Source of the DNA: a virus
DNA length: 64,000 nucleotides
IMG/VR virus record: IMGVR_UViG_3300027754_000061
Location: 1 to 64,000 of that record
Reading direction: 5' to 3' (one strand)
Positions within the stretch are counted from its first letter, which is position 1. Every line of letters begins with the position of its first letter. This document shows positions 1,862 to 47,544 of the stretch, in pieces. The position numbers and the translations under genes are program-made. The notes under the pieces were generated by a model. That model was not told where the DNA came from. It made no database searches and worked only from the letters and a program-made list of their open reading frames with translations.

Positions 1862-1862
1862 A

Positions 1863-4655: not shown

Positions 4656-4957
4656 CGTTTTTTGCTTAACTCATCATGTTCTACTAACCAGGCATTCATC
4701 TGTTCTTGCCAGTGTTGCATGGCCATGAGTCTCAGTTGTTCAGGATTGATTTTTACTGGTGTTTCGTACAAGTCTAATATTACTGCGTCACCAGGTGGCA
4801 CAGTGGCCAGTAATACCAAGAGTTCAGGACCAGCGCGCCACATACCACCGGCGTGGGCAAACAGCATCCGAGCCTCATATTTTTCTTTAAGCAAGCGTCT
4901 AGCAGATTCGTGATTGAATCTAGAGCGGGCATGTGAGATTAAACTTTCTGTGTCCAT
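4652..4957 (-). CDS. Small conserved phage protein (unknown function)
   Basis: A 101-residue protein, first gene of the minus-strand accessory operon. It is mostly helical in character (Ser-Ala-Arg-Arg-Leu-Leu-Lys-Glu-Lys-Tyr-Glu-Ala) with a central Gly-Gly-Met-Trp-Arg-Ala-Gly-Pro turn and a Glu-Thr-Pro-Val-Lys-Ile-Asn segment. Proteins with this arrangement are common in T4-like phages of aquatic bacteria, but I know no function for them. The preceding 30 bases contain no recognisable late-promoter octamer, so transcription may read through from the tail block or use an unrecognised promoter. Confidence 0.65.
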   Translation of the reverse strand: MDTESLISHARSRFNHESARRLLKEKYEARMLFAHAGGMWRAGPELLVLLATVPPGDAVILDLYETPVKINPEQLRLMAMQHWQEQMNAWLVEHDELSKKR

Positions 4958-23800: not shown

Positions 23801-23941
23801 TACTGTTCGCCCGATGTATCCTTGTGTTTGCTTGAACTTTGGCTCTTGTGTGAGTTGATCCAATGTGGCAGCTAGAAACTGCTTGTTGGTATCAGTCTGA
23901 AAAATCTGTGGGAGTAAATCTACCGAACGTACAGTGGCCAT
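8801..23941 (-). CDS. Giant multidomain baseplate/adhesin protein (5046 residues)
   Basis: One uninterrupted frame of 5046 residues starts at an ATG that overlaps the gp6 stop (TAATG). Its N-terminus (Leu-Leu-Pro-Gln-Ile-Phe-Gln-Thr; Phe-Val-Asn-Phe-Ser-Gln-Tyr-Phe-Trp-Leu-Pro) resembles a large structural family of T4-like aquatic phages. The place after gp6 is that of gp7/gp8 in T4. Visible modules, with approximate residues: a cupredoxin-like beta domain (205-297); four Trp...Tyr...Gly-(D/Q)-X-Val CBM5/12-like stretches (1989-2034, 3014-3060, 4100-4149, 4390-4435); at least six FG-GAP-like blades between 2400 and 3280; and a Gly-Thr-Thr-X-Phe module (4465-4515). I infer a wedge component that also carries carbohydrate-binding domains. 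It is far longer than T4 gp7 (about 1030 residues). Confidence 0.75.
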   Translation of the reverse strand: MATVRSVDLLPQIFQTDTNKQFLAATLDQLTQEPKFKQTQGYIGRTVGPGVNPNDNYVVEPDAIRTDYQLEPGVVSLVPDTNTIKNAITYPGINDAVGFSGGDSARPDRLYESEYYSWDPFVDFDTFVNFSQYFWLPAGPDAVDVQAAAIPTTDNFAVTRENGVYTFSGVTGDNPVIDLVRGGSYTFQIAQNTKETVNYRVGNSGTSAYLLDGLRNPTLTLVRGNTYVFNLVFVGDFPFWIKTAPVTGVGDVYDTGVTRNGAVTGLVTFTVPQDAPSTLYYASQTQMNMQGTLNIVDGVPGTGPGFWIQAFPGVNGKDPNNPNISSRDVLGVSDNGTDLGTVVFNVPQKTAQNFYYSLTPFGVNSNGLVITPVDIICDLKFEQVNNQPVEQFLATYGGIDGTANLNGRTLVFTEPVTDAEAGGWQVNTFFDPLTETSSNNGLVGSYDTTFFSQSSPVPPEDRYQLWQINYVTVDHYTYMTLSKISDIPVLNKFTARYGIQYSNTQWYKTAAGVFERIPLLTAAQDILYYQDGTDPEIFGRIRLVEQTASTTLFIDAILGQPSYTSPNGVVFTNGLKVKFVGDVSPATYGSGTFPLVITAAQPGSNYLTTASTADLYVGEKIVFSQSIGGVLPGTYYVQSIAANGIQFSISTQKGGGAYPLDIGSGNVTATVVSDLEYYVSGVGTAIELLPVENFVTPELYVVDANDSTIYTEPDTTDYLTINRASLDRNAWSRSNRWFHTDVINATAKYNNAVATFDNNYRAKRPIIQFRPDIRLWNMGTEGKTPVDIIDFAQTDAFSNIEGSTGYTIDGYTLIDGSRVIFAADEDQSVRNKIYVVSFIVPDTVAPLIAQPIINLTPAEDGEVLADQCTVCLNGVTSAGVTFWFDGTNWIEAQQKTAVQQAPLFNVYNTSGYSFGDQTVYQSSTFSGSKLFSYAVGDTTIIDPILQFPLQYLNINNVGDIVFVNNLYKDTFLYVVDNASVTLDISSGSVREYDTRATYQRLIGWQTAATKSQTYQQFKFTYTGATLKLDVKANSSVNNTPPIKIYVGSVFQEPGVYSYLTTDTSTTITLNNTYIPGDIIEVLVLSDQTSATAFYQVPINLQNNPLNGNSPEFTLGTIRTHYESICQNLLTVQGPVNGSNNTRDLGNLVPYGLTILQQSAPMTLAGYFLRSPDYNIFASLSFAAREYNKYKYQLLDAVTQQTIGFDTISQILDTAIQNVTLGRVETQPFYWSDMLPSGAVYTTTTYTIGYTDTGSFDTVQVYNYRSANYLGMNVYLGEALLTRDRDYVVATDGPRITVLVDLPLGSQLVLQEYSATYGSFAPNTPTKLGLYPAFVPQVITQRASGGMVQVTQGHDGSITPLFNDIRDQVLLEFETRIYNNLKLDGNPVPLTIENVLPGQFRDTGFSYSEITNILNQDFLSYVGANKLDYRTQNFRADNKFTWNYSSAQNKLNSKENLLGAWRGINRYFYDTEQPQYTPWEMLGFSKQPLWWEGKYGPAPYTGDNLVLWDDLAAGYVADPVAPYFRPEYARPASIGSADEPPRSGIWGPGPYPSMAPVIPTGDEGQLLSPFNSTMGTYANAQFQKSWAPGDGGPVEASFWNSSSYPFAVMHVLAVTRTAKFFALFADRDLYRYNVEFGQYLLNDRYRLDANGIEVYGNGVSKASYIDWIVDYNRQSGINSTDELTADLASLDVRLCYRMASFSDKQYIKIFTEKSSPNSTNTTLMIPDQSYNLLLYKNQPFDRTSYSAVVIQNVTGGYAVYGYSAAQPYFNVLASKSTGQLRTITSGGATVRVPTFYTNTVVQVPYGTIFTNETSVCDFLLSYGQLLQQQGITFTDRANGYVLDWGQMCNEFLYWSQQGWGENALLNLNPLAAKLTVTREQAVVDSIAVQTIDNVLLDQNNRELPTRNLNVVRIGNTFVCEPLTTQTLSYIDLKYTTYEHMIVLDNQSVFGDLMYQPTTGARQNRLILIASNTADWTGQIDTPGFILNLDNVQEWTGLKRYTKGQIVKYKNVYWSALNIVQPSAQFNFNDWTQSDYTQIELGLLPNLANKADQLANSYNINSANLETDNDLLSYGLIGFRPRQYMAALNLDDVSQLNVYRQFLGSKGTIISAELFSNANLGKEAADYSIYENWAVLRATYGANANRSFVELRLNRAYLSSNPSLVQVVLPQQASSADQQILFSDIWKQSYKLTSPDFMPTTTVSPTDIQLPTAGYVNLNDADITVFDINDLGNISANLDAIAVGTSIWVAKVNDYDWNIYRAQAVPGAIQHVCDNLDGTSRVIFSQPHGLSYSDTLIINFFDSEVNGVYNVLSVPNITTVNIAFQFTNQRTVADGTGLGFTLKTMRVAQASDVINLPYANDILPGAIVWVDNNGEDLWEVIQKQDVFTSSSQISPVLLDAGEQYGSAVAQASARAALFVGSPRYGFGTVTEKGAVYVYVKNSGDTYSPVSPIADADGILTLDRTGVRGYGNAIDFGNQTWAVAGASKSLGPSSETNNGYAAVIYRDPALGQPGVNPFAQWQLLTLPGTTTSTTPGAGEFGYSVAMSLDERWMYVGAPGLNTVYAYGRVTWEDQFITVLGDGVTTQFLIGNVIQIDNSSQLKVTLDGNIQLSGYSVDAAFNKVTFTTAPASGVLIKMQRISSQQLDAQTYYDVPQTSTSGSGLGAKFTIIRVRGEVGQPGSTQGGVGATSFGSGYAVGNTITIAGASFGGTNNIVLTITSIGTGGTLGNFNIAYTAPTLATVFSLNEYFFTATNIYSFSIEVNNVLYRPNIDYTFSTVTQDLTFTGTGPAAGAVIVARAKSYFTYINSITAIGLSSSDRFGHSISCTTDGRQLLIGTPYSTESGNVEAGSVYVFDRNVQRFIYGEDGSTVTFTLLGTPVAPIGVIVNNVFLTNQTDSVVGADNTFYWNGANTVTINADLQYGDVIEIETNQFAQVQELTQNTIANFSNFGQTVDICSYDCSLYSGVPQSSVQIYKGGVVERDVNQSRIYGTITSTVANAALTSGNTLRVNNMDVTVPAAWSSLTTYNKNDVVYNLSGTTYTIYLALQAVPAATALSNASYWSSVTTTTVAASIYVRALAAHINSTVPNVVAIVDSTGYLTVSVKNSNAAPAFNKLQVAPGSVGTAFTTLAFKTFAFTQTILSPYPVKYGAFGSSVSVSDQATTVVVGAPNGTLYLITVFDDGTTDFDADSTTFITTVNNSGAVYAYDYLPSSTLSISNPGQFIFGQQINNSQINTLDGFGTAVNYIDGILVAGAPKNDVGDSTADYGRVFVFQNPDRNPAWTVIRQQQPVVDIRLINGVFAYDRVTSATTQFFDFFDPLQGKILGAARQNIDYIGGIDPANYNIGPTSINGATWWDGHTSEVWWDTSTVRFIDPNQDDITYASRRWGQLFPGSSVDVYQWILSPVPPINYTGPGTPYSTISYSINTRLTRDGIFATEYYFWVRGITTTATQQGKTLSVATVARYITDPKSSGITYMAPINASTIALYNAAEYIVASDTVINISFDREATDSNVHTEYELIAEGKPDAFLSTNLYRKLQDSFCGVDTFGNNVPDPNLGPAERYGVQFRPRQSMFVDRFAALKNYLTRVNDVLSMYSISESRSFNLLNSAEPEPSAATGLWNLRVANLEILGFQNIYTVPLGYRYLVVTDSDNKGLWTIYTVAASDQTAGKRLLRLSFVQGYNTADYWSYIDWYLPGYNSSSKVIATIPNKAGLDTLTVAVGSSVKITANAQGKWEIYLLTDAGWERVGLQDGTIAFSAELWDYQLGRFGFDIEVFDAQYYDQEPVKETRKIIQAINEELLIDELAIERNRALTLVFNFVLSEFSAPEWLVKTSLIDVDHRIRNLVPYQNYRRDNQEFVLDYIKEVKPYHVQLREFNLRYNGLDQFQGSLTDFDLPAYYNTTLTTPQYTSPILLPYQHGSSDVANFLSDLPANSTVWNTFPYDQWYNNYLLTLTAVTIVDNGTGYTEPPIVIVGDAWTSNTSVTINQQLFYANNNTTNLYTVVVDGITGIEPPTFTTSGLQTNGTATLAYAGLAAEATAVINSLGQVVAVNVTYSDAVYRSTPSISFSGGGGVGSGAIAYARITPGLARSFKTTIKYDRFQYFSDVRDWSPSGTYQDGQLVRYDDRVWQAASADSTAVVGPTFNLEDWTLIPARDLTGVDRTMGLYVAGPNQPGLDLPLLIDGVDYPGVQVYGNYFLDTAPEDAIYASTFTDTTLGNTFTSINVDGGEFIGLYEGHAPEELVNGAEFDTLDLRVYTRPGADWNRDGHGFQLADTRYLYEAAVTDTFSWAGLVENPVGIFVTNTTTNLPLALNIDYSVDWVLQTITVLTVANGDILSVTAYELGGGNQLYRDNFTGTGSQTTIIPVNSAQIISIAVFVNGVSTTVVGWTPYTPSVDWNQLNSYAKQDLVNTNDGSSAETYYRALKDVPAGIDIADPLYWLEYVPTLQSIVDLGAVYDDTDGIALVAFGVSVIDAGYFIIGRQYTITEVGTTNFVAIGAGANTVGTVFTASGIGSGTGKASTVYSWSAPQTQYIVADSNFVTFKSTTLTNSVQGSNLANMIVDRNGLRLQPPEGREWTSDGSSLAFALPNRGGYSQSIINATTDVIVWVDNILQQQSIGGVPGVYSVTPYSGTNDREVVFNVPPPAGARILITVTTQAGYQLAGTTLQIVGAVNLDDLFSVTTFNDTSQQYPLTLVFNGPIVTGVEIVDPFDPLPNDPAYNSQPGSFDYATVNDTQWSYSYSKGDAVYDNQFWLERANVNAARLWVTLDGYALTNSIDYTVEGEYLILGSGAIEPGQIMAITEVTSSIVPDAMAFRIFQDMRGVQATYRITPASTTALMQPLTATGNIMYVEDANALGQPNLDIGVFGVCTVNGERIMYRGINLVDNSINGLMRGTAGTAAADHDTGAAVYDLSRGNLLQSSYQDYIVSDTSIGDGSTTVFYAPSINVDDFVDSSSEAPAIEVYVAGIRQYAYSDTTATSQYRWFVTDFDPLAVDFVVDDTAYPPLLPPVANVEVTILVRHGVTWYQRGPTTPSDGIALQDTETIAARFLRGL

Positions 23942-36066: not shown

Positions 36067-36099
36067 TTGACAACATCACACAGTGTGTTACAATAAATA
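36067..36099 (+). promoter_or_regulatory. Sigma70-type promoter upstream of gp55, overlapping a late-like octamer
   Basis: TTGACA (36067-36072), a 16-base spacer and TACAAT (36089-36094) form a good host-type promoter. AATAAATA (36092-36099), one base from the T4 late octamer, overlaps its -10. An AGGAG ribosome-binding site at 36106-36110 stands five bases before the ATG at 36116. The arrangement would let host polymerase start gp55 synthesis and gp55 sustain it. Confidence 0.65.
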
Positions 36100-36115
36100 T
36101 ATATCAGGAGAATTC

Positions 36116-37024
36116 ATGTCTTTATTACCAAAGTCAGCCCCCCGTGTGAACTATCTCAACAACAGAGATATCTTAAAAGAAATACATCTAAGCAAAAACA
36201 ACTACTGCTGGTATCAAGACCGTGGGGCGGATCATCAATTTGATATCATCTTGCCCAGTCTTGACAAAATAAATCAACGCACCATTGCCGAAGCACGCCG
36301 AAACCGTGCAGATCGCATCAAAAGAGAAACTGGTGAGATTGTTGATCCCAAGAAAATCCCCAACACAGATATTGTTTTTCGTATCACCGTGTGGGACCAT
36401 GTGCCTATGGCTCCGAAGAAAATAACCAAAGCAGAAGCCAAAGCTAAACGCAAACGCCTGGAAGACATACTAGATCTAGACGATGCTGTGGAAGAAGATG
36501 ATCCTTTGGCCGAGTTGTTAGATGTACCAGTGTTGAGTTTGAATCACGTGAGATTGAATTTTCCACCGTTTGAACACTACCGTATAGATGAAGAAAAAGC
36601 ACCGTTTATCGTAGGACGCAGTCATTGGAAGGGCAGTCTCGATGATGGCGAATTTTCAAAGGATCATGGAGAGATGACACGCAAGTTGGCCACCATGTTC
36701 ATGAAGTTGTGCGAACGCTATGCCACTAGATCAAACTGGCGTGGATACACCTACAATGAAGAGATGCGTGGGCAAGCCTTGTTACAGTTGAGCCAGATTG
36801 GATTGCAGTTTGACGAGTCAAAATCGCAGAATCCGTTTGCGTATTACACTGCTGCTATCACCAACAGTTTTACCCGTATCTTGAACATTGAGAAGAAGAT
36901 GCAAAACATCCGTGATGACATCCTTGAGATGAACGGACTCAATCCGTCATGGACTCGACAGAATTCAGGCAAGGCAGGTATGGCTGCCATGAGCGGTCCG
37001 GTTGTAAGCACCTTGGACGAATGA
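36116..37024 (+). CDS. 55: Late-transcription sigma factor gp55
   Basis: A 302-residue protein. The ATG at 36116 is chosen over an upstream in-frame ATG because AGGAG lies at the right distance. The start (Val-Asn-Tyr-Leu-Asn-Asn-Arg-Asp-Ile-Leu-Lys-Glu-Ile) parallels T4 gp55 (Tyr-Asn-Tyr-Val-Asn-Asn-Lys-Glu-Leu-Leu). Residues of about 205-270 hold the sigma region 2 core: Trp-Arg-Gly-Tyr-Thr, Gly-Leu-Gln-Phe-Asp-Glu-Ser-Lys-Ser-Gln-Asn-Pro-Phe-Ala-Tyr, then a basic helix. Between them is an insertion of more than 100 residues, mostly charged, absent from T4 gp55 (185 residues). The C-terminus lacks an obvious hydrophobic clamp-binding peptide. It would direct RNA polymerase to TATAAATA promoters. 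Confidence 0.85.
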   Translation: MSLLPKSAPRVNYLNNRDILKEIHLSKNNYCWYQDRGADHQFDIILPSLDKINQRTIAEARRNRADRIKRETGEIVDPKKIPNTDIVFRITVWDHVPMAPKKITKAEAKAKRKRLEDILDLDDAVEEDDPLAELLDVPVLSLNHVRLNFPPFEHYRIDEEKAPFIVGRSHWKGSLDDGEFSKDHGEMTRKLATMFMKLCERYATRSNWRGYTYNEEMRGQALLQLSQIGLQFDESKSQNPFAYYTAAITNSFTRILNIEKKMQNIRDDILEMNGLNPSWTRQNSGKAGMAAMSGPVVSTLDE

Positions 37025-37902
37025 CCGTTCCAATATTGTTCAATGGCGGAGCATATGGCACTTATGTAGAATGGTGTTTGACCAGTCTATCAACATCTGA
37101 CCAATTATCATCTCCATTTAGAGCCAATGGTGCTAGTCATAATTTCGATGGTAACCATCTGCTGAATATGCAAGGTTGGCGACAATATCTAAGTGGCTCC
37201 GATCATAGTAAATTTGTAAGATTGCATCCCAAGACCGATAAGAATCATTCACTAAAAAATCATCTCGACGAGATTTTACAATCAGTTGACCAGGTAATTT
37301 TTCTATACCCTGATACTGATTCGGTGTTGCTTAATTTAAACAATTGGATAGATAAGGTGTGGTACAACCGGTGGATTGATTTTATTGGTAGTGAGGTGGA
37401 TTATAAAAAAATATACAAGAATTGGCCAATTGCTCCCGATACCGCAATAAAGGACATTGATGTGTGGATATATCGAGAATTCTTAAGCATGTATCTTGTT
37501 CCATCATGGCAATCTCAAGTAGAATGGTATTTTCCTGATAAATGGCAATCTCCAAGATGTAGGTATATTTTTGTCAAGGATTTACTACATGATTTTGAGA
37601 ATACCATCACGGCTATTGCAGATTTTTTGAAATTAGATGTTCAACGACCTATCAGTGCATTGTTGCCATATCATGAACAAAATATCAAATTACAAAAACA
37701 CATCGATCAGGATAAAATTTGCAATTATATCATTGACTCAATACTAAATGGTGACTTTATAACCTGGAATGCTTTACCTATTGTTAGCGAAGCATGGATA
37801 CAATGGAGACTAAGAGAATTAGGATATGAAATCCGATGTCATGGGCTTGACACATTCCCTACAACTAGTGTACAATTGAAAGAACTACTTTATACACCAT
37901 GA
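37021..37902 (+). CDS. Putative sulfotransferase-like/P-loop-type protein (paralogue of 46492 gene)
   Basis: A 293-residue protein. Its ATG overlaps the gp55 stop as ATGA; its own stop overlaps gp47 in the same way. Features are an N-terminal strand and turn (Ile-Leu-Phe-Asn-Gly-Gly-Ala-Tyr-Gly-Thr-Tyr-Val-Glu-Trp), a second strand (Gln-Val-Ile-Phe-Leu-Tyr-Pro), Trp-Ile-Tyr-Arg-Glu-Phe-Leu, and a C-terminal Arg-Tyr-Ile-Phe-Val-Lys-Asp-Leu-Leu. The order recalls sulfotransferase folds, but the nucleotide-binding residues are not clear. The protein at 46492-47544 has the same plan and a similar C-terminal end. Base composition is more AT-rich by eye than gp55 and gp47, which fits an inserted gene. 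Confidence 0.45.
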   Translation: MTVPILFNGGAYGTYVEWCLTSLSTSDQLSSPFRANGASHNFDGNHLLNMQGWRQYLSGSDHSKFVRLHPKTDKNHSLKNHLDEILQSVDQVIFLYPDTDSVLLNLNNWIDKVWYNRWIDFIGSEVDYKKIYKNWPIAPDTAIKDIDVWIYREFLSMYLVPSWQSQVEWYFPDKWQSPRCRYIFVKDLLHDFENTITAIADFLKLDVQRPISALLPYHEQNIKLQKHIDQDKICNYIIDSILNGDFITWNALPIVSEAWIQWRLRELGYEIRCHGLDTFPTTSVQLKELLYTP

Positions 37903-38915
37903 CCAATCTATTCCGCAAAGCCGCAATCTTCACGGACATCCACTTTGGACTTAAATCCAACAGCACCACTCACAATGAAGACTGCTTAAACTTTGTGAAG
38001 TGGGCCACTGCCAAGGCACGAGAGGAAGGTTGTGAAACCTGCATGTTCCTAGGCGACTGGCACAACAACAGAGCCAGTCTCAACATTGTCACCTTGAACT
38101 ACAGCCTCAGGGCTCTAGAGCACATGAATGCAAATTTTGAACATGTTTACTTTATTCCAGGCAATCACGACCTATACTATCGTGACAAGCGTGATATCCA
38201 AAGTGTAGAGTGGGCACGACATTTGCCCAATGTGGAGATCTGTAACGATTGGTTCAGCAGTGGCGATGTTGTGATTGCTCCTTGGCTGTGTGGTGATGAT
38301 CACAAACGCATACCCAAGCTAAAAGGCAAGTATATGTTTGGGCATTTTGAACTGCCCGGTTATTTGATGAATGCTATGGTAGAGATGCCGGATCACGGTG
38401 AGGTTCGCAGAGAAGACTTCAACAATTTTGAACATGTGTTTACTGGTCACTTCCACAAACGACAAACCAAAAAGAACATTACATACATTGGCAACGCATT
38501 TCCCCACAACTACGCAGATGCCGGCGACGATGCTCGCGGTCTTACCATCTTGGAGTGGGGGCAGGATCCTGTGTATCATGCGTGGCCCGATCAACCCAGA
38601 TATCGTGTGTTAGGTCTTGCCAACATCATCGACAATGCAGCCGCATTACTTGCACCTCGCATGCATGTTCGTGTGAACTTGGACATCGAGATTTCATACG
38701 AAGAAGCCAACTTCATCAAAGAAACCTACATCAAAGACTACAGTCTCAGAGAGATGGCCCTGATACCCAACAAGAATAGTTCTGTGGACACAGACATGGC
38801 GCCTGGTGAGATCAAGTTTGAATCAGTAGATCAAATTGTGACAGATCAGATCACCAATATTGAATCGGAGTTTTACGATAACCGACTACTGTTGAAAATT
38901 TACCAGAATCTATGA
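37899..38915 (+). CDS. 47: Recombination endonuclease subunit gp47 (Mre11/SbcD-like)
   Basis: A 338-residue metallophosphoesterase, the size of T4 gp47 (339). All phosphoesterase motifs are present: Asp-Ile-His (13-15), Gly-Asp-Trp-His-Asn (52-56), Gly-Asn-His-Asp (88-91), Gly-His-Phe-Glu and Thr-Gly-His-Phe-His (about 182-186). With gp46 it makes the complex that resects DNA ends for recombination-dependent replication and degrades host DNA. In T4 gp47 and gp46 are close neighbours; here a radical SAM gene of 1.5 kb stands between them. The start overlaps the preceding stop (ATGA), and the stop overlaps the radical SAM start in the same way. Confidence 0.95.
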   Translation: MTNLFRKAAIFTDIHFGLKSNSTTHNEDCLNFVKWATAKAREEGCETCMFLGDWHNNRASLNIVTLNYSLRALEHMNANFEHVYFIPGNHDLYYRDKRDIQSVEWARHLPNVEICNDWFSSGDVVIAPWLCGDDHKRIPKLKGKYMFGHFELPGYLMNAMVEMPDHGEVRREDFNNFEHVFTGHFHKRQTKKNITYIGNAFPHNYADAGDDARGLTILEWGQDPVYHAWPDQPRYRVLGLANIIDNAAALLAPRMHVRVNLDIEISYEEANFIKETYIKDYSLREMALIPNKNSSVDTDMAPGEIKFESVDQIVTDQITNIESEFYDNRLLLKIYQNL

Positions 38916-40405
38916 GCACTCTCACAGTTGATCAGTTGAAACATGACCTATCTAAAAAATATTTAATAAAATGTTTTGTTGATCTGGCAGATCTCACCAA
39001 AGGCCCATCACAGGCCTATAAAATTTTACAACAGCATCATCAGCAAGAATTTTCTCTCAACGATCGATTGGTATTTTATACCAAACACGATGTATCTGAT
39101 CAATTGCTGGAACATTTATATCAAGCCGCAACATTGATAGATGTATCCAATTTTTTCGTATTGTTATGCGTTCCAGTTGATCTCACATTCAAACTTGATG
39201 CCATTGCTTTTGAAAATTCTGGAGATAATGTTTCATTCCAATCGATACAAGTGAATATAACCGATACCAAACCCATGTCTAGCGGTTTTGTATTGCCGGC
39301 AACTTTATGCCCCATGCCTTGGTCTCATATGATGATCGATCAGTCCGGAGACGCCAAGCCATGTTGTGTTTACCAAGATCCAGTTGGCAATGCTGTTGGG
39401 AACTCAATAGATCAATTGTTTCATAATCAGGGGTACAACCAACTTAGACAAAATTTGTTATCTGGAAAAAAAGTATCAGGATGTGATCATTGTTGGAATC
39501 TCGAGGAACACGGACTAACCAGCAACCGTACAATGCACATGCGATTGTTGAAGAAAGATCTGTTGACCAAGTATCTGGATGATCCCAAAATTACCAGTTT
39601 AGATATTGCTCCGGGCAACACATGCAATTTTAAATGTCGTATATGCACTCCAAAGGCCAGTTCATTGTTTGCACAAGAAGTACAATCAATCAGTGGAATT
39701 TTACCCATAAGATCGTTTAACTGGGCCGAGTCAGACAACAAAATCATGCAAGAGATATCTGATCTGCTGCCTTCATTGACTAATATTGATATGTATGGCG
39801 GAGAACCGTTTTTAATCAAACCTCTACACCAACTGGTGTCACAGGCAGTGGAACAAGAACATGCAAAACATATAAGATTACATTACAATAGCAATGGCTC
39901 CGTCTATCCTGATCATCTCATCAAACATTGGCAACATTTTGCTCATGTAGATATACATTTTAGCATCGACAACGTAGGAGCACGGTTTGATCTCGAACGC
40001 GGGGGTTCATGGCAGCAGGTAACATCAAACATTCGTAAATTGGTAGATCTCTCTTTATCAAATCTAAAAATTAGTATAATGCCAACTATCAGTATCATGA
40101 ATATTTTTTATCTTGATGAACTATTAATCTGGGCAGACAAATTAGGATTACCTGTTAATGTTAACTATCTTGATTCGCCTAAAGAATTCAGTATCAAGAA
40201 TCTCACTCCACTTGCTAAAAAATTGATACTTGAAAAATTTCAAGATCATCCTTGGCCCGAGATGAGCAGCATTTTAACTACTATAAAGTCATTTCCTGGT
40301 TCAGATGGAGTTGGGTTTGTGTCTCTCAGTAGACACTTTGATCGCATACGAGGACAAAATTTTTCAAGCACTCATGCCGAAATAGCACATGCCATGGGTA
40401 TGTAG
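38912..40405 (+). CDS. Radical SAM protein with N-terminal twitch/SPASM-like cluster motif
   Basis: A 497-residue protein. The SAM-cleaving [4Fe-4S] motif CX3CX2C is C238, C242, C245, followed by a Met-Tyr-Gly-Gly-Glu-Pro segment typical of radical SAM barrels. Ahead of the core lies a second cysteine set: Cys-Pro-Met-Pro-Trp (C133), Pro-Cys-Cys (C151, C152) and Cys-X2-Cys-Trp (C191, C194). This resembles the auxiliary-cluster region that most SPASM enzymes carry after the core, so the order is permuted. The gene is wedged between gp47 and gp46 with ATGA coupling to gp47. Family enzymes modify peptides, proteins or sugars; the substrate here is unknown. Confidence 0.8.
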   Translation: MSTLTVDQLKHDLSKKYLIKCFVDLADLTKGPSQAYKILQQHHQQEFSLNDRLVFYTKHDVSDQLLEHLYQAATLIDVSNFFVLLCVPVDLTFKLDAIAFENSGDNVSFQSIQVNITDTKPMSSGFVLPATLCPMPWSHMMIDQSGDAKPCCVYQDPVGNAVGNSIDQLFHNQGYNQLRQNLLSGKKVSGCDHCWNLEEHGLTSNRTMHMRLLKKDLLTKYLDDPKITSLDIAPGNTCNFKCRICTPKASSLFAQEVQSISGILPIRSFNWAESDNKIMQEISDLLPSLTNIDMYGGEPFLIKPLHQLVSQAVEQEHAKHIRLHYNSNGSVYPDHLIKHWQHFAHVDIHFSIDNVGARFDLERGGSWQQVTSNIRKLVDLSLSNLKISIMPTISIMNIFYLDELLIWADKLGLPVNVNYLDSPKEFSIKNLTPLAKKLILEKFQDHPWPEMSSILTTIKSFPGSDGVGFVSLSRHFDRIRGQNFSSTHAEIAHAMGM

Positions 40406-40406
40406 G

Positions 40407-40435
40407 TTTACATCTACAGGTAATATTGTTATAAT
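40407..40435 (+). promoter_or_regulatory. Sigma70-type promoter directly before gp46
   Basis: TTTACA (40407-40412, one change from TTGACA), a 17-base spacer and a perfect TATAAT (40430-40435). The expected start of transcription would be near 40442, only about five bases before the gp46 ATG at 40447, so the mRNA would have almost no leader. No Shine-Dalgarno sequence is visible before that ATG. Confidence 0.6.
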
Positions 40436-40446
40436 GTCAAACACTT

Positions 40447-42210
40447 ATGATACATCTTCGTGACCTCACAGTAAAAAACTTCATGAGCGTAGGCAATACC
40501 ACGCAGGCCATTGACTTTGATCGATCGGACCTTACCTTGGTGCTGGGCGAAAACTTGGACATGGGAGGCGATGGATCTCGCAATGGCACAGGCAAGACCA
40601 CAATCATCAATGCACTAAGCTATGCATTGTATGGCCAAGCATTATCAAACATTCGTAAAGACAATCTAGTAAACAAGACCAATGCCAAGCACATGCTTGT
40701 GAGCCTGGACTTCTCTGTGGGCGGGCAGAACTATCGAATTGAGCGCGGTCGCAAACCCAATGTTCTCAAGTTCTATGTAAACGACGAGCATCAAGCAGCA
40801 CAGGACGAAGCACAAGGTGATTCAAGAGAAACACAAGAAGCTATCGAGCGTGTGTTGGGCATGAGCCATGACATGTTCCAGCATATTGTAGCACTGAACA
40901 CTTACACACCGCCTTTCTTGAGTCTCAAGGCCAATGAACAGCGCACAATCATTGAACAACTGCTGGGTATCACGCTGCTGAGTGAGCGTGCCGATCGTAT
41001 CAAAGAACTCAACAGACAAACCAAAGATTCTATCCAAGCAGAAGAACTGCGTATCCGTGCGGTGCAAGAAGCCAACAAACGCATCGAAGAACAGATTGTC
41101 AGTTTAGAGAAACGCAGAACCTTGTGGCTACGCAAACAAACAGAAGATACTGAAGGTCTAGCACAAGGTATTGCTGACCTTGAACACATCGATATTGCAG
41201 CGGAGGTACAAGCACACAGAGATCTCGACGCATACCATGCTCGTAAAAAATCCATAGACGAAGCCAATCGTTGGATACGGCAGATTGATGCCGACGATAC
41301 CAAACTGCTGAAGCAAATGGCTCAGATTGAAAAAGATCTCACGCAGATTGCCAGCCACAAGTGTTTTGCCTGCGGCACAGACATACACGACAACAGTCTT
41401 GACACTGTGAAAGCACAGCGTGAAAAGACTCTGCTAGAAATCTCATTGCAAGTGCTGACCAACGACACGCAACGATCCGAACATCAAGATCGATTGCGAG
41501 AACTTGGCGAACTAGGGCAAGCACCCCGGGTGTTCTATGACAGCCTCGAACAGGCACTGAATCACAAGAACACTGTGGATACCCTAAACAAGGATCTTGT
41601 CACACGATCCGCAGAGACTGATCCTTACAGCGAACAGATCGCAGACATGCAGAATCAAGCCCTGCAAGTAGTTTCGTATGACACGCTAAACGAATACACT
41701 AGATTACAAGAGCATCAAGAGTTTTTGCTCAAACTGCTCACCAGCAAAGACAGTTTTGTGCGTAAGAAGATCATTGATCAAAACTTGAGTTATCTCAACA
41801 GCAGACTCACACACTATCTTGATCGTATCGGATTACCACATACTGTGAAGTTCCAGAACGATCTTACAGTGAGCATTGAAGAACTAGGTCGTGAATTGGA
41901 CTTTGACAACTTGAGCCGAGGTGAGCGTAACCGATTGATCCTCAGCATGAGTTGGGCGTTCCGCGATGTGTGGGAGAGTTTGTATGAACCCATCAACATC
42001 TTGTTCATTGACGAGATGATTGACTCCGGCTTGGACACCCAAGGCGTAGAGAATGCCCTGGCCCTGTTAAAGAAGATGAGTCGCGAACGACACAAGAGCA
42101 TTTGGCTTGTGAGTCATAGAGACGAACTGACCAGCAGGGTAGAGAACATTCTCAAGGTGATAAAAGAGAATGGCTTCACTTCATATTCAACGGATGCAGA
42201 AATTGCTTGA
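40447..42210 (+). CDS. 46: Recombination endonuclease subunit gp46 (Rad50/SbcC-like ATPase)
   Basis: A 587-residue SMC-type ATPase, close to T4 gp46 (560). The Walker A motif Gly-Thr-Gly-Lys-Thr-Thr lies at 47-52. The coiled-coil centre carries the zinc hook Cys-Phe-Ala-Cys (C306, C309). The ABC signature Leu-Ser-Arg-Gly-Glu-Arg and the Walker B Ile-Leu-Phe-Ile-Asp-Glu (near 518-523) are close to the C-terminus. It drives gp47 nuclease action on DNA ends. A good sigma70 promoter stands immediately upstream, giving it expression independent of the inserted radical SAM gene. Its last 41 bases overlap the next gene. Confidence 0.95.
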   Translation: MIHLRDLTVKNFMSVGNTTQAIDFDRSDLTLVLGENLDMGGDGSRNGTGKTTIINALSYALYGQALSNIRKDNLVNKTNAKHMLVSLDFSVGGQNYRIERGRKPNVLKFYVNDEHQAAQDEAQGDSRETQEAIERVLGMSHDMFQHIVALNTYTPPFLSLKANEQRTIIEQLLGITLLSERADRIKELNRQTKDSIQAEELRIRAVQEANKRIEEQIVSLEKRRTLWLRKQTEDTEGLAQGIADLEHIDIAAEVQAHRDLDAYHARKKSIDEANRWIRQIDADDTKLLKQMAQIEKDLTQIASHKCFACGTDIHDNSLDTVKAQREKTLLEISLQVLTNDTQRSEHQDRLRELGELGQAPRVFYDSLEQALNHKNTVDTLNKDLVTRSAETDPYSEQIADMQNQALQVVSYDTLNEYTRLQEHQEFLLKLLTSKDSFVRKKIIDQNLSYLNSRLTHYLDRIGLPHTVKFQNDLTVSIEELGRELDFDNLSRGERNRLILSMSWAFRDVWESLYEPINILFIDEMIDSGLDTQGVENALALLKKMSRERHKSIWLVSHRDELTSRVENILKVIKENGFTSYSTDAEIA

Positions 42211-43225
42211 TCGAGCAACACAGTTAAGTTGGGCAATTGCTGCCTGTGAACAAACAGATTTTTTTTCCACTAGAAATCAAGTCAGATTTGTGTTGCAAGG
42301 GTCACGAGCTGTAGAACCACCAGAATTTTGTGATTACATTAGAGAGATATTTTCCCAGGATCTACTACAAGACGGATTGAATCGTCCGCAAAATCTCAAT
42401 GATTTTGTTCACAGCATGCCCAAATGGATCTCTCAAAATTCTGTGAACAAAATCACTGGATTAGATCAATATCAGGCTGATTTCAGCAGCGGCACTACTC
42501 AGAGTTTTGATAGTTTTTATTATCGATATAGATCAAGACGCATGCGATGCTTCGTGGGCGAATACTTTTATCATCTAAAAACTTGGATCAGTAATAATAC
42601 CCCATGGAGTATGATATCCGAGGCTGACCCGTTAACAGCCGGGGACGCACTGGTAGTGAGTTTACCTTTTTGTGATACCGGTACGCAATTAGAAAATTTT
42701 GATCAGGTATTAGAGAAATGCAATCAACTGGGCATACCGGTGTTGGTTGATTGTTGCTACTATTTTATCAGTCGCGGCGTCAGCGCAGATCTCAGTGCAG
42801 ACTGCATTGACACAGTGACTTTCAGTCTTAGCAAAGCGTTTACTGTGGCAAGACTGCGTATCGGTGTGAGATTTACTAAACCAAATATTTTTGATGGGCA
42901 AAAGCTGCATCACTCTACTCACTACAATAACAGCCTAAGTGCCTGGGTGGGGTTAAAAATCATACAAAAATTTTCCAGTGACTACATTGCAAAACTATAT
43001 CAGGAAAAACAACAGCAAGTATGCGGATATCTTGGTCTGACTCCCAGTCAATCTGTTATATTTGCCATTGGCGATGCAGACTGGAGCCAGTACAATCGCA
43101 GTGGTCTATTGCATACGTACCAGCTGGATCTTGATGCTGGTCAATTCCAAAACAGAATTTGTTTGTCTGCAATATATAATCACTGGGACTTGTTCAGTCA
43201 CTTACAAAATGAAACTACATCTTGA
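42170..43225 (+). CDS. PLP-dependent aminotransferase-like protein (fold type I)
   Basis: A 351-residue protein. Val-Leu-Val-Asp-Cys-Cys-Tyr-Tyr supplies the aspartate (D194) and tyrosine (Y197) that would hold the pyridine ring. Ser-Leu-Ser-Lys (K222) is the Schiff-base lysine motif, and Arg-Ile-Gly (R230-G232) follows at the K+8 spacing of aspartate aminotransferase-type enzymes. A Phe-Ser-Ser-Gly-Thr-Thr-Gln-Ser phosphate-loop-like turn lies upstream. Length is somewhat below the usual 380-400 residues. The start at 42170 has AAGGTGA upstream and overlaps gp46; an ATG at 42194 is the alternative. A related protein lies 430 bases further on, which suggests a dimeric or two-step function. 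The substrate is not predictable. Confidence 0.7.
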   Translation: MASLHIQRMQKLLDRATQLSWAIAACEQTDFFSTRNQVRFVLQGSRAVEPPEFCDYIREIFSQDLLQDGLNRPQNLNDFVHSMPKWISQNSVNKITGLDQYQADFSSGTTQSFDSFYYRYRSRRMRCFVGEYFYHLKTWISNNTPWSMISEADPLTAGDALVVSLPFCDTGTQLENFDQVLEKCNQLGIPVLVDCCYYFISRGVSADLSADCIDTVTFSLSKAFTVARLRIGVRFTKPNIFDGQKLHHSTHYNNSLSAWVGLKIIQKFSSDYIAKLYQEKQQQVCGYLGLTPSQSVIFAIGDADWSQYNRSGLLHTYQLDLDAGQFQNRICLSAIYNHWDLFSHLQNETTS

Positions 43226-43688
43226 ATTTATCAACATCATAGATCAGCCACGATGCAAAATTTCTATCAATCATGAAGAATTGTATTCCGGCACGGTGCT
43301 CGAAGTATATGATTTTGATGTTCCGTCCACCCAGGGTGCAGTATCCATAGTGATCACACATTGGGATAAGCAACCACATGACACAGTGGTTGAAAATAAT
43401 CAAATTGTACGTGATAGAAGTTTTGAACTTGCCCGACTGACAGTAGATGGATATGATCTTGAAGAACTAATATGGCATAGCGAGTTTCGTGCAGTTGATG
43501 GTGCTGTGTATCCTAGCTGTTTGTTTTTTGGCCCCAATGGGGATTTTGTGTTGGATCTTACTATGCCAGTGTTGACATGGATATTGCACACTCGCCATAC
43601 CAAAAACAACAATGACCCACACTGGCAAGAAGATTATAATTATTACATCACAGCATGTCAACTACTACAGCAGATATCAATCAAATAA
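43209..43688 (+). CDS. Small beta-rich protein between the two PLP-type genes
   Basis: A 159-residue protein. The ATG at 43209 was chosen because upstream codons of the same frame lie entirely inside the preceding gene. Alternating strands (Leu-His-Leu-Glu-Phe-Ile-Asn-Ile-Ile, Lys-Ile-Ser-Ile, Ser-Ile-Val-Ile-Thr-His-Trp) point to a beta-sandwich. Conserved-looking elements are Asp-Thr-Val-Val-Glu-Asn, Asp-Arg-Ser-Phe-Glu-Leu, Cys-Leu-Phe-Phe-Gly-Pro-Asn-Gly and Asn-Asn-Asn-Asp-Pro-X-Trp. I recall similar unassigned proteins from aquatic phages. It overlaps both flanking PLP-type genes, by 17 and 34 bases, so all three are made together; a binding or scaffold role is only a guess. Confidence 0.55.
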   Translation: MKLHLEFINIIDQPRCKISINHEELYSGTVLEVYDFDVPSTQGAVSIVITHWDKQPHDTVVENNQIVRDRSFELARLTVDGYDLEELIWHSEFRAVDGAVYPSCLFFGPNGDFVLDLTMPVLTWILHTRHTKNNNDPHWQEDYNYYITACQLLQQISIK

Positions 43689-44716
43689 AACAGATAGCCT
43701 GGGTACTGTCTTTGGCCGGTGCTACCAATCAGCTGGATGTGCCTGGTGAGTATATTTGGGCATACCCCCTCAGCAGTGGTTTTGAACATGTGAGGCTGCG
43801 AACTCACGGCATATTCAGCAGCGGCAACAGCATTAAAGATCCTGAGGTGATGGAGTTTGTGCAGAATCAGAACATTAACCGGCATCTTGTAAATCCCTGG
43901 GTAGTGCAAGAGTTTGAACAACAATTTAAATCTTGGATCTCCAGAGGCACACGATATCGCTTACACAATTTTGATTTGTTTCGATACACGGGATTCAGTG
44001 CCGGGTCACAAGAAAGTTTTATCAACTTCTATCTTGTGAACAAAGACCGCAGGTTTCGTATTTTCAAAGGCGACTACTGGTGGCATATCGACATCTGGAA
44101 CAGTGTGGGCATATCATGGGCGTTTATCGAAGATGACGACTTAAAACCCAACGATATATGTATTTGTAGTTACCCGTTTGCACTTACCGGAGACAAACAT
44201 CAAAATTTTGATTGGTTGGTTGATGAGTGCAATCGCATAGGAATCAAGCTGTTGGTAGATTTTATCTATCTGCCTAACAGCAATAATGCTGTGGATATTG
44301 ATCTCAGTGCCGAGTGCATAGAGCAAATTACTTTTAGTTTAAGCAAGACTTTTCCTGTTCAATGCGCTAAAATAGCTGTGCGTATGTGCAAGAACAAACC
44401 TAGTGATCCATTGCAAATCAGCAACGATGAGAATATATGCAATCGCCTAGGAGCCGGCTTGGCACTAGATATTATCAATACATTTCCTGTTGATTATAAT
44501 GTGACCAAGTATCAGGATCAACAACAATATTGGTGCAACAAGTTAGGTCTCATTGCCACCAAGGTTGTGCATTTTGGGCGCGGAGATGATTACACCAGCA
44601 TTGGCCGTGCTGATAACCATACCTGGATCAGTGCATACAATCAGCAGAAAAATAGATATAATTTAGGCATGCTATTTGAAAATCAAGATCTACTAAAAAA
44701 ATTACAACTATATTAG
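43655..44716 (+). CDS. Second PLP-type aminotransferase-like protein, with altered active-site residues
   Basis: A 353-residue paralogue of the protein at 42170. It keeps the aspartate of Leu-Leu-Val-Asp-Phe-Ile-Tyr (D202, Y205) and the lysine of Ser-Leu-Ser-Lys (K231), and the upstream Phe-Ser-Ala-Gly-Ser-Gln-Glu-Ser turn. At the K+8 position an Arg-X-Gly is replaced by Lys239-Ile-Ala. It may therefore bind the PLP phosphate differently, use another cofactor or act as the non-catalytic partner of its neighbour. The gene overlaps the small protein upstream by 34 bases and lies five bases before a radical SAM gene. Confidence 0.65.
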   Translation: MSTTTADINQIKQIAWVLSLAGATNQLDVPGEYIWAYPLSSGFEHVRLRTHGIFSSGNSIKDPEVMEFVQNQNINRHLVNPWVVQEFEQQFKSWISRGTRYRLHNFDLFRYTGFSAGSQESFINFYLVNKDRRFRIFKGDYWWHIDIWNSVGISWAFIEDDDLKPNDICICSYPFALTGDKHQNFDWLVDECNRIGIKLLVDFIYLPNSNNAVDIDLSAECIEQITFSLSKTFPVQCAKIAVRMCKNKPSDPLQISNDENICNRLGAGLALDIINTFPVDYNVTKYQDQQQYWCNKLGLIATKVVHFGRGDDYTSIGRADNHTWISAYNQQKNRYNLGMLFENQDLLKKLQLY

Positions 44717-44720
44717 CAAC

Positions 44721-45623
44721 ATGAATATAACTATACCAGTGCTGCAACGTCGTGACATCAAAGAATTACATCTAGAACCCACAGATGTGTGTCAGGCTGC
44801 ATGTGCGTTGTGTTCTCGAGAACTAGATCCCAACTTTGATAAAAATTTTCAACATCATCTGACCATTGACCAAATAATTCAACATTTTGATAACACACAT
44901 ATTGCCAAGCTACACAAGATGTACATGTGCGGCTTGTATGGAGACCCGGCGGCCGGCAAACATACTCTGGACATATATCAATACTTTCGATCTATCAACC
45001 CAGAAATCACGCTGGGTATGAATACAAACGGAGCATTACAATCTGCTAGATGGTGGAATACTCTGGGAACGATACTGAACAGGCAACGGGATTATGTGGT
45101 ATTCAGTATTGATGGCTTAGAAAATACCAATGCAATATATCGAAAAAATGTAAATTGGACCAAACTCATGACCAATGCTGAAACTTATATCAATGCAGGC
45201 GGACGAGCACACTGGGATATGTTAGTATATCAACACAATGAACACCAGGTGCATCAGTGTGAACAACTAGCCCGTGACATGGGATTTTTTTGGTTTCGTG
45301 CCAAAATCAGCAATAGGCCATTGATCGATAATTTAAAACGTGCAACAACCTGGACCATACCTGAACCAAAAACAGGACCAATTGATTGTTTTGCATTGTC
45401 TGAACAAAGCGCATATATCGATGCGCAAGGCAGATTGAGTCCTTGCTGTATTCTTGGAGATAGACAAAAAGATTTTATAGGATTTGACAATGATTTTGAG
45501 GACATTCAAAAATCATGGAATACATCAGAATGTAACACAATATGCAAGAGCAGTTGCTCTAGCGACAATATTACTACTACCTCAAAAAATCAATGGCAAT
45601 ATATAGCAGAACTTAAACAATAA
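44721..45623 (+). CDS. Radical SAM protein with C-terminal SPASM-like motif
   Basis: A 300-residue protein. The CX3CX2C motif is C24, C28, C31 near the N-terminus, followed by Met-Cys-Gly-Leu-Tyr-Gly-Asp-Pro in the position of the radical SAM Gly-Gly-Glu strand. A C-terminal set, C223, Pro-Cys-Cys (C242, C243) and several further cysteines in the last 35 residues, has the spacing of a SPASM auxiliary cluster. This is the usual order of domains, unlike the radical SAM protein at 38912. SPASM enzymes often modify peptides or activate partner enzymes. It lies five bases after the second PLP-type gene and closes the cassette. Confidence 0.8.
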   Translation: MNITIPVLQRRDIKELHLEPTDVCQAACALCSRELDPNFDKNFQHHLTIDQIIQHFDNTHIAKLHKMYMCGLYGDPAAGKHTLDIYQYFRSINPEITLGMNTNGALQSARWWNTLGTILNRQRDYVVFSIDGLENTNAIYRKNVNWTKLMTNAETYINAGGRAHWDMLVYQHNEHQVHQCEQLARDMGFFWFRAKISNRPLIDNLKRATTWTIPEPKTGPIDCFALSEQSAYIDAQGRLSPCCILGDRQKDFIGFDNDFEDIQKSWNTSECNTICKSSCSSDNITTTSKNQWQYIAELKQ

Positions 45624-45680: not shown

Positions 45681-46109
45681 ATGACATGGCTATATCAAAA
45701 CACCCCTGTGGAGACTTTGCCCGACTCATGTGTGGGATTTGTTTACTTGATCACAAATAATCTCACTGGACGCAAATACATAGGCAAAAAACTGGCAAAG
45801 TTTTCAAAAACCACATACAAAACGGTCAAACAAAAGAACGGCATCAAAAAGAAAAAACGCATACGAAGCAAAATTGATTCAGATTGGCAACAATATTATG
45901 GATCCAGCGCAGAACTATCCGCAGACATTGAAAAACTAGGCACCGACAATTTCACCAGAGAAATACTTTACTACTGTGCAAGCAAGAGTGAATGCTCATA
46001 CATTGAGGCACGCGAGCAGTTCAGTAGACAGGTATTGGAATCAGCAGATTATTACAATGGCCATATACAGGTAAGGGTACATGGCCGCCAAATCCTAAAC
46101 AAAATTTAA
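45681..46109 (+). CDS. GIY-YIG nuclease (homing endonuclease-like)
   Basis: A 142-residue protein. The GIY half is Gly-Phe-Val-Tyr-Leu-Ile (19-24) and the YIG half is Lys-Tyr-Ile-Gly-Lys-Lys (32-37), followed by a Lys/Arg-rich segment and a Tyr-Ile-Glu-Ala helix that would hold the catalytic glutamate. Phages of the T4 group carry free-standing (Seg) and intron-borne nucleases of this type. This copy consists of little more than the catalytic domain. It lies directly before a stretch of probable structured RNA, which raises the possibility of an intron or intergenic homing element. I could not recognise a group I core there. Confidence 0.8.
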   Translation: MTWLYQNTPVETLPDSCVGFVYLITNNLTGRKYIGKKLAKFSKTTYKTVKQKNGIKKKKRIRSKIDSDWQQYYGSSAELSADIEKLGTDNFTREILYYCASKSECSYIEAREQFSRQVLESADYYNGHIQVRVHGRQILNKI

Positions 46110-46482: not shown

Positions 46483-46504
46483 AGAACTTCGCTAGCGAAG
46501 TTCT
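46483..46504. terminator. Perfect 22-bp palindrome at a convergent gene junction
   Basis: AGAACTTCGCTAGCGAAGTT plus CT reads identically on both strands and can form a hairpin in either transcript. It covers the stop codon of the minus-strand gene at 46492 and lies after the candidate RNA on the plus strand. Neither side is followed by a strong T run, so a bidirectional terminator or 3' end stabiliser is inferred; a protein-binding site is also possible. Confidence 0.5.
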
Positions 46505-47544
46505 TCATATGTATGCACAAGCGTATGAATGTTTGGCTCAAGCAATCGATGTAGATCTATTGTGTTCCTTGGAAACTTTTCTAGTTGCCACGTTCTTAGA
46601 TTGAGATTATGTTTGTAGATCAGAGCATGTTGTATTATGACTTCTTGATCAAATGACAGTTCTGGTAGTTCTTTATACCATCCATTTACTATACATTTTA
46701 TTGTATCATCAAACCCGTCTCCAAATTTCATCAATGCCAATGGCTTCTGCGCCCATTCGTGATATATAGGAATCCATTGACCCAATCTATCCGGAACAAT
46801 GGGCATATCTAAGTACATCATGATCTGATGAAATAATTCTATCCCACGATGCCATAGGTCGCTGACGCTGGCTCTGAAGTGTGGTTTTGAAAAATTACAT
46901 TTATCTGCGACTTCATTAGTATGCATATCAAGTAATCTTACATCCAGTGCTTGCCGTTCTCTAACATCCCAAATATTTTCTAATCCAAGATTTTTCCATT
47001 TATCTATTGAGTTTTTATGAAAACTTTTTTTTCTATAGTCTATTTCAGCTTGTTCGTCTTCAGGTACATTGTATTTTATCCGTTGATGGCCAAATAATTT
47101 ATACCAGTTGACAGATTTGTTATCATGTATAAAAATTATCTTGGCATTGTTATTGATACAACAATCAAATATCCTAGCGTAGTTTTCCGTATGCCATTTT
47201 TGCTCTATTTCTGAAAAATCTTTCTCATCGGCTTGTTCAAAATTGATTTTTAGTTTCTTACGAACATGTGATGTTTCTGCAGAAAATGGGTACATGCTAT
47301 ACAACCCATCATCGGGCATGTTTTTTGCCTGTTGCAACATCGTAGTTACATTTTCTATTCCGCCAGGGTGATTTCTATCATGGCCGTGTGCATTGCAATC
47401 TGTGAGAGGATTCAATACCAACGGAATCCATTGTTGTTGTGCAAACGAGTAATACTGTTTTTTTCCTGCTAGAAAATGTATGCTCCAATCAATAAAAGTA
47501 CAACCTACACTATCTGCGCTGAGAGAACATACAATTTTTTTCAT
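46492..47544 (-). CDS. Putative sulfotransferase-like protein (paralogue of 37021 gene)
   Basis: A 350-residue protein. It shares the plan of the protein at 37021: an initial strand and turn (Val-Gly-Cys-Thr-Phe-Ile-Asp-Trp), Lys-Ile-Ile-Phe-Ile-His-Asp, Trp-Asp-Val-Arg-Glu-Arg-Gln, and a C-terminal stretch ending in Phe-Pro-X-Asn-Thr-Ile-Asp-Leu-His-Arg-Leu-Leu. The Arg-Glu element in the middle recalls sulfotransferases, but no clear PAPS-binding loop is visible, so the assignment is weak. It is the last gene of a minus-strand set headed by the hub genes, with a four-base overlap to the gene upstream, and it appears AT-rich by eye. Confidence 0.45.
   Translation of the reverse strand: MKKIVCSLSADSVGCTFIDWSIHFLAGKKQYYSFAQQQWIPLVLNPLTDCNAHGHDRNHPGGIENVTTMLQQAKNMPDDGLYSMYPFSAETSHVRKKLKINFEQADEKDFSEIEQKWHTENYARIFDCCINNNAKIIFIHDNKSVNWYKLFGHQRIKYNVPEDEQAEIDYRKKSFHKNSIDKWKNLGLENIWDVRERQALDVRLLDMHTNEVADKCNFSKPHFRASVSDLWHRGIELFHQIMMYLDMPIVPDRLGQWIPIYHEWAQKPLALMKFGDGFDDTIKCIVNGWYKELPELSFDQEVIIQHALIYKHNLNLRTWQLEKFPRNTIDLHRLLEPNIHTLVHTYEELR

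Follow-up and report, generated by a model that had tools for sequence, protein, structure and literature searches.

A PLP1-small-PLP2 gene triad carried as exchangeable cargo beside gp46 in T4-like phages, with a possible role in glycan tailoring

The DNA analysed was a stretch of 64,000 nucleotides (the window), positions 1 to 64,000 of the IMG/VR virus record IMGVR_UViG_3300027754_000061, which is 92,637 bases long. Genes in this part of the window stand in a T4-like order (sigma-like gene, gp47, rSAM1, gp46, PLP1, small, PLP2, rSAM2, segE) and include two for radical S-adenosylmethionine (SAM) proteins (rSAM1 and rSAM2), two for pyridoxal phosphate (PLP) enzymes (PLP1 and PLP2) and one for a small protein (small). 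A preliminary description of the sequence had read these five as a single pathway cassette woven around gp46. All five are genuine genes subject to purifying selection, with dN/dS (the ratio of nonsynonymous to synonymous substitution rates) of 0.08-0.14 where computable and the corresponding ratio of polymorphisms, pN/pS, well below 1 where dS was saturated. The open reading frames, cysteine motifs, PLP lysines and tight junctions described earlier were all confirmed. Junctions (negative values are overlaps, in nucleotides) are -4 for gp47/rSAM1, +41 for rSAM1/gp46, -41 for gp46/PLP1, -17 for PLP1/small, -34 for small/PLP2 and +4 for PLP2/rSAM2; small starts at an ATG (43209) inside PLP1. The layout around gp46, separating it from gp47, holds in this genome and does not recur as one fixed set in relatives.

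The inherited unit is the triad PLP1-small-PLP2 (42170-44716), not a five-gene cassette. IMG/VR was scanned with PLP1, PLP2 and small, yielding 48 PLP clusters at 90% identity, 31 of which contain PLP2. The order PLP1-small-PLP2 was retained in 24 of these 31 (from locus maps), and small lay directly upstream of PLP2 in all 30 clusters in which that sequence was present. Overlapping junctions were found in relatives at 36/36 PLP1/small borders (8-38 nt) and 49/49 small/PLP2 borders (7-55 nt), with starts inferred from profile alignments. PLP2 is the best-conserved gene of the triad and forms one clade with full support. Pairwise distances were compared across 26 loci with all genes. Those of the triad genes correlated among themselves at 0.89-0.93, and with gp46 or segE at only 0.37-0.48 (PLP1, PLP2) and 0.34-0.38 (small); gp46 and segE correlated at 0.67. 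The bootstrap interval for r(PLP1,PLP2) minus r(gp46,PLP2) was 0.24-0.68. The triad thus diverges in step internally and weakly with gp46 and segE, as one block that has moved independently of the genes on either side. An obligate PLP1/PLP2 heterodimer was considered and is unlikely, because six marine clusters have PLP2 and small without a recognisable PLP1, and because PLP1-type enzymes adjoin amidinotransferases without PLP2.

The region gp47/gp46/segE is a cargo hotspot with two slots, A between gp47 and gp46 and B between gp46 and segE. Slot B was surveyed in loci (numbered L) chosen by gp46 alone, without reference to the PLP genes; the best 80 gp46 matches formed 61 clusters at 95% gp46 identity, so that the fractions describe near relatives only. 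Radical SAM genes filled the slot in 33 clusters (plus one mixed), 16 were empty, six held other genes and five held the triad (one of these a mixed cluster). Slot A was filled in 48 of 71 clusters, with varied contents: rSAM1 in the window, and other radical SAM genes or an amidinotransferase (L039, beside a triad) in relatives. By eye, slot A of L006 (3544-7788) holds a ligase, a TctC-type receptor and Rieske dioxygenase subunits, and that of L019 (1118-6174) two TauD-like dioxygenases, a desaturase and a large radical SAM gene; such contents could point to hosts among the betaproteobacteria. With a SegE-like GIY-YIG gene at its edge, the hotspot may exchange cargo by a homing-type process. 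It is conceivable that the triad is neutral cargo dragged along by such exchange and has no role of its own, as the hotspot behaviour, the incongruence with the flanks and the endonuclease at the border would allow; strong purifying selection and retained catalytic residues make this most improbable.

The two radical SAM genes behave differently from the triad. rSAM2 follows PLP2 in two clusters only (L004, L005), and rSAM2-type genes (LHLEPTDVCQAAC) stand after gp46 in L171, L174, L209 and L234, where the PLP genes are missing; a second radical SAM gene and a short-chain dehydrogenase/reductase (SDR) are frequent neighbours there. Pairs of a radical SAM gene and a small SDR gene were also seen right after gp46, in either order, in L171, L174, L176, L195, L209, L220 and L236. 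From synteny and from the slot B contents of the gp46 clusters, both radical SAM genes are independent, interchangeable cargo, and the lineage of the window has one rSAM2-type cassette stacked behind its triad. Synteny rules out a single five-gene pathway: in the relatives surveyed the triad genes are linked and the radical SAM genes vary independently, so that the cassette claim of the preliminary description fails for rSAM1 and rSAM2. Coordinates are collected in Table 1.

Table 1. Genes of the two-slot region and its borders (window coordinates)
Feature	Position	Strand	Support
Sigma-like gene	36083-37024		Label is our reading of the sequence only
gp47, SbcD-like recombination nuclease subunit, left border of slot A	37899..38915	+	PHROG 100, 9.2e-61
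rSAM1, twitch-domain radical SAM protein, variable cargo of slot A (gp47/gp46)	38912..40405	+	497 aa; NF033640, Pfam
gp46, SbcC-like recombination ATPase, between both cargo slots	40447..42210	+	PHROG 77, 3.1e-97
PLP1, compact HisC-like fold-type-I PLP enzyme (by sequence)	42170..43225	+	K222, D194, Y197, R230, R329 kept
small, 159 aa, CBM60/CBM36-like predicted fold, putative PLP2 partner	43209..43688	+	AF2 model, Foldseek
PLP2, PLP enzyme (by sequence)	43655..44716	+	K231, D202, Y205, K239, R334 kept; PFALTG
rSAM2, radical SAM protein with C-terminal Cys cluster, slot B (gp46/segE)	44721..45623	+	300 aa; Pfam Radical_SAM
SegE-like GIY-YIG endonuclease, right border of slot B	45681..46109	+	Pfam PF19835, 4.1e-33

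Class assignments made earlier, SPASM/twitch radical SAM and fold-type-I PLP, were upheld by Pfam, NCBIfam, Foldseek and alignment. rSAM1 carries C238-X3-C242-X2-C245, with a second cysteine set on its N-terminal side (C133, C151/152, C191, C194; Pfam SPASM at 133-195, 3.2e-8). rSAM2 carries C24/C28/C31, with a second set on its C-terminal side (C223, C242/243, C271-279). This difference accounts for the ‘opposite placement’ of the second cluster remarked on before. Pfam Radical_SAM (cutoff 29.5 bits) matched rSAM1 at 1.4e-10 and 42.0 bits, and rSAM2 at 1.8e-7 and 31.9 bits. rSAM1 is a full member of the twitch radical SAM family NF033640 (N_Twi_rSAM; 288.9 bits against a cutoff of 170), from which it shows no difference, and rSAM2 falls below that cutoff (41.9 bits). 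rSAM1 was rejected as a viperin (pVip; 24.3 bits against a cutoff of 180), its weak PADLOC match (5.6e-9) being an echo of the superfamily.

PLP1 and PLP2 are 33% identical to each other and on sequence belong to a compact HisC-like branch of fold type I. With bacterial sequences as bridges, they were aligned to HisC and AspC of E. coli. The Schiff-base lysine in an S-x-S-K-type motif (K222 in PLP1, K231 in PLP2) aligns with that of HisC and AspC and is invariant across both family alignments. The aspartate to the pyridine nitrogen and a tyrosine three residues on are present (D194/Y197 and D202/Y205), and R329 (PLP1) and R334 (PLP2) align with the substrate-carboxylate arginine of HisC and AspC, in a part of the alignment where identity is low. 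The likeness to the HisC/CobD/aspartate aminotransferase family (PF00155) thus extends over lysine, aspartate, tyrosine, phosphate-binding motif, carboxylate arginine and fold match. Unlike that family, both proteins are compact, without one large-domain segment, and both have lost the asparagine of PNNPTG that contacts PLP O3', with Cys-Asp in PLP1 (PFCDTG) and Ala-Leu in PLP2 (PFALTG); PLP2 in addition has lysine in place of the phosphate arginine. Pfam recognised PLP1 only, and weakly. NCBIfam matches of PLP1 were also weak (HisC, CobD and the gamma-hydroxyarginine cyclodehydratase GntC), and the HisC equivalog cutoff was not reached (17.3 against 276.55 bits). The PLP2 model was of low confidence (predicted local distance difference test, pLDDT, 64), and Foldseek placed it among fold-type-I enzymes (HisC, CobD, C-S lyases). 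Decarboxylases, lyases and oxidases share this PLP fold with aminotransferases.

Neither PLP1, PLP2 nor small had a close homologue among 50,697 cultured-phage records. A sequence search of the PDB gave nothing for PLP2 and small and a chance match only for PLP1, with no real profile match for either PLP protein, and a search of bacterial genomes with PLP2 gave nothing. The nearest bacterial homologue (L163, 35%) lies on an alphaproteobacterial contig from a single cell (single amplified genome, SAG) that also carries glycosyltransferase, acyltransferase and SDR genes; weaker HisC-like homologues adjoin a CMP-sugar-type cytidylyltransferase and a B12 radical SAM gene. A third PLP set, of about 300 aa, has an amidinotransferase as neighbour in the majority of its clusters; upstream lie a radical SAM gene and a 204-aa gene of 2-oxoglutarate (2OG) oxygenase look. 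The 204-aa protein had no Pfam or PHROG match and was named from its look and from the Asp/Arg-hydroxylase annotation of neighbours in the Pelagibacter phage Mosig.

These PLP families could instead serve cytosolic small-molecule metabolism, by transaminating, decarboxylating or cyclising a free amino acid, perhaps derived from arginine. A host pathway would then be boosted or blocked, and the protein encoded by small would merely be a subunit. The substrate-carboxylate arginine kept in PLP1 and PLP2, the PLP1 matches to HisC, CobD and GntC, the frank metabolic cargo in slot A of relatives, and the use of arginine by amidinotransferases all count for this proposal. The family matches are weak and non-specific, however, and the predicted fold of small and neighbouring glycosyltransferase family 8 (GT8) genes point to glycans, so that we regard it as unlikely.

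The AF2 model of small was confident (pLDDT 87.8). Its top two PDB matches by Foldseek were carbohydrate-binding modules of the CBM60/CBM36 type (2xhh, E = 1.4e-3; 2xfd, E = 2.9e-3; Foldseek probability 1.00), with target TM (template modelling) scores of 0.62-0.63; generic C2 and lipase sandwiches ranked next. small is accordingly predicted to be a CBM60/CBM36-like beta-sandwich, at borderline E-values. It differs from 2xfd and 2xhh in being a stand-alone phage protein, with a C-terminal helical tail added and about 11% identity. No Pfam CBM was found in 16 members of the family at E up to 10, there was no PHROG match, and matches in BFVD were to uncharacterised phage proteins only. The structure prediction called for earlier gave a CBM-like small and, less securely, a fold-type-I PLP2.

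Paralogues of small occur with other catalysts. They adjoin B12 radical SAM genes in 6/6 arrays of the 470-540 aa type, and in whole phage records 7 of 10 small genes outside triads stood next to a radical SAM gene (the exceptions being L258, L259 and L262). Some B12 radical SAM genes lack a recognised small partner: those in L019 (slot A) and L100 have none, and the 135-aa protein present in L242 goes unrecognised by the small profile. Two small paralogues had no match in cultured phages. In L258 (2783-3627), in a setting without radical SAM genes, a CBM60-like small gene follows the gene for a similar-looking protein of 127 aa, which suggests that the family may have uses beyond enzyme pairs.

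That small-type genes adjoin such different enzymes (PLP2, SPASM radical SAM and B12 radical SAM) would also fit small being the substrate, with the PLP and radical SAM enzymes modifying its side chains to yield a virion or host-surface lectin, in the manner of a ribosomally synthesised and post-translationally modified peptide (RiPP). RiPP C-methyltransferases are among the best NCBIfam matches of the B12 radical SAM genes; these scores lie far under the cutoffs, however, and are similar for lipid and P-methyltransferases. Instead of a single common substrate, each enzyme is paired with a separate, diverged paralogue, the small gene of the triad is not among virion genes, and HisC-like PLP enzymes that act on folded proteins are rare. 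We consider this proposal improbable.

Genes around the triad in relatives bear on its role. In most marine clusters a GT8-type glycosyltransferase lies directly upstream of (PLP1-)small-PLP2. In a sister genome of 151.6 kb (G001), a tail-side island (L251, G001:108000-127000) holds five radical SAM genes, a NodU-like carbamoyltransferase (PF16861, 2e-47), an amidinotransferase-like gene, glycosyltransferase-like genes and an OX-type gene. The edge of this island corresponds to window positions 1-4957, and the window record starts inside one of its radical SAM genes. Across 12 records of these phages there were 1-21 radical SAM Pfam matches each; in this loose search the window record gave only rSAM1, and the remaining records gave 3-21 each, the sister nine.

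From the gene content, conservation, slots, co-inheritance, catalytic residues, predicted fold of small and neighbours, we tentatively infer, at somewhat less than even confidence, that the triad is an exchangeable system for tailoring a glycan or sugar-derived molecule. A glycan is suggested by the CBM60-like partner and by the GT8, amidinotransferase, carbamoyltransferase, SDR and 2OG-oxygenase-like genes. PLP amination, guanidination, carbamoylation, methylation by B12 radical SAM enzymes, dehydrogenation or epimerisation by radical SAM and SDR enzymes, and a carbohydrate-binding-like partner together resemble the decoration of aminosugars or aminocyclitols. Carried as exchangeable cargo beside gp46, the triad would encode two HisC-like enzymes that bind PLP and are active. 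An amino acid would serve them as amino donor or as substrate, and they would aminate their substrate or convert it in some other way. The CBM60-like small would be the partner of PLP2 and would recruit or present the sugar-bearing substrate, possibly a host-surface or virion glycan or an intermediate derived from a sugar nucleotide. Radical SAM enzymes in the same slots (twitch, C-terminal-SPASM and B12-dependent) may be interchangeable further tailoring enzymes, some with their own small-type partner. The likely benefit would be an altered surface or virion glycan, giving superinfection exclusion, receptor masking or evasion.

Several points weigh against this glycan role. The two CBM60 E-values are only near significance, the PLP2 model is weak, and the lost PLP-binding asparagine could mean altered chemistry. 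Access to a surface glycan is an assumption. The case draws largely on the company these genes keep, and the region is home to metabolic cargo of no evident relation as well (by eye Rieske dioxygenase-, TctC- and TauD-like).

The amino-modified product proposed earlier, on a glycan, a peptide or DNA, is compatible with the neighbours of relatives where a glycan is concerned. Hypermodification of DNA or tRNA, with amino groups added to phage bases near the recombination genes, would suit genes that adjoin gp46/gp47, and PLP and radical SAM enzymes do act in phage thymidine hypermodification pathways. The position beside gp46 says nothing about DNA, because many unrelated cargo genes occupy it. 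PF00303 (thymidylate synthase/hydroxymethylase type, to which hydroxymethyl-pyrimidine synthases belong) was absent from G000 and from the sister G001, both of which may be incomplete, in a search that did not cover pathway kinases and pyrophosphorylases. A role in DNA or tRNA is very unlikely.

The Campylobacter phages CP220 and CPt10 carry islands of radical SAM and glycine amidinotransferase genes (PMC2853527). They resemble the present loci in their interchangeable radical SAM and amidinotransferase modules, glycosyltransferase-like neighbours and many radical SAM genes per phage, and differ in genome position and hosts and in the lack of an annotated aminotransferase in the CP220 region examined. 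G007 (170 kb, containing L095) had 21 radical SAM Pfam matches, against 11-12 for the Campylobacter phages (PMC2853527). Mosig (EXVC030M) encodes a distant PLP homologue (26%), the sole cultured-phage match of a related PLP protein, near carbamoyltransferase, MoaA-like, ArnB-like and Asp/Arg hydroxylase genes; this gene lies by the tail fibres rather than gp46, and its annotated neighbours include no recognised small or PLP2. In hypervariable regions of pelagimyophages, radical SAM cassettes differ between close genomes, and glycosyltransferases of related pelagimyophages have been read as modifying the host O-chain (PMC7029224). A search of the literature found no phage set of PLP and radical SAM genes. 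The earlier statement that no phage system has this gene set stands, as far as searched, for the triad with its CBM60-like partner; clusters of radical SAM and amidinotransferase genes had been published (PMC2853527). Within the reach of these searches, four things are new: the triad, the compact branch of PLP enzymes, the family of CBM60-like partners that PLP and radical SAM enzymes have in common, and the hotspot at gp47/gp46/segE with its two slots.

As a phage cassette of three genes, the triad is both conserved and mobile, and it brings in two new protein families, the compact PLP branch and the CBM60-like partners for which Pfam and PHROG have no model. In uncultured T4-like phages, gp47/gp46 act as a landing site for cargo. 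A partner common to PLP and radical SAM enzymes gives a handle on what many phage radical SAM enzymes act on. It is possible, if rather doubtful, that the CBM60-like family is a dedicated substrate-presenting partner for unrelated catalysts (the PLP branch, SPASM and B12 radical SAM enzymes), and that the pairs are swapped as plug-in modules at gp46/gp47 and elsewhere. Such pairs would amount to a combinatorial glycan-decorating chemistry and to a new two-part enzyme design in phages.

Proteins of 317 aa (36949-37902) and 350 aa (46492-47544) flank the region; Pfam and PHROG gave no family for them at useful scores, and they are missing or variable in relatives. A single open reading frame of 5,046 aa (8801-23941, minus strand) lies among baseplate/tail-type genes of the window. 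gp46 is 587 aa long in the window and about 691-693 aa in the close relatives L005, L006, L009 and L015, which have an extra stretch of about 105 aa.

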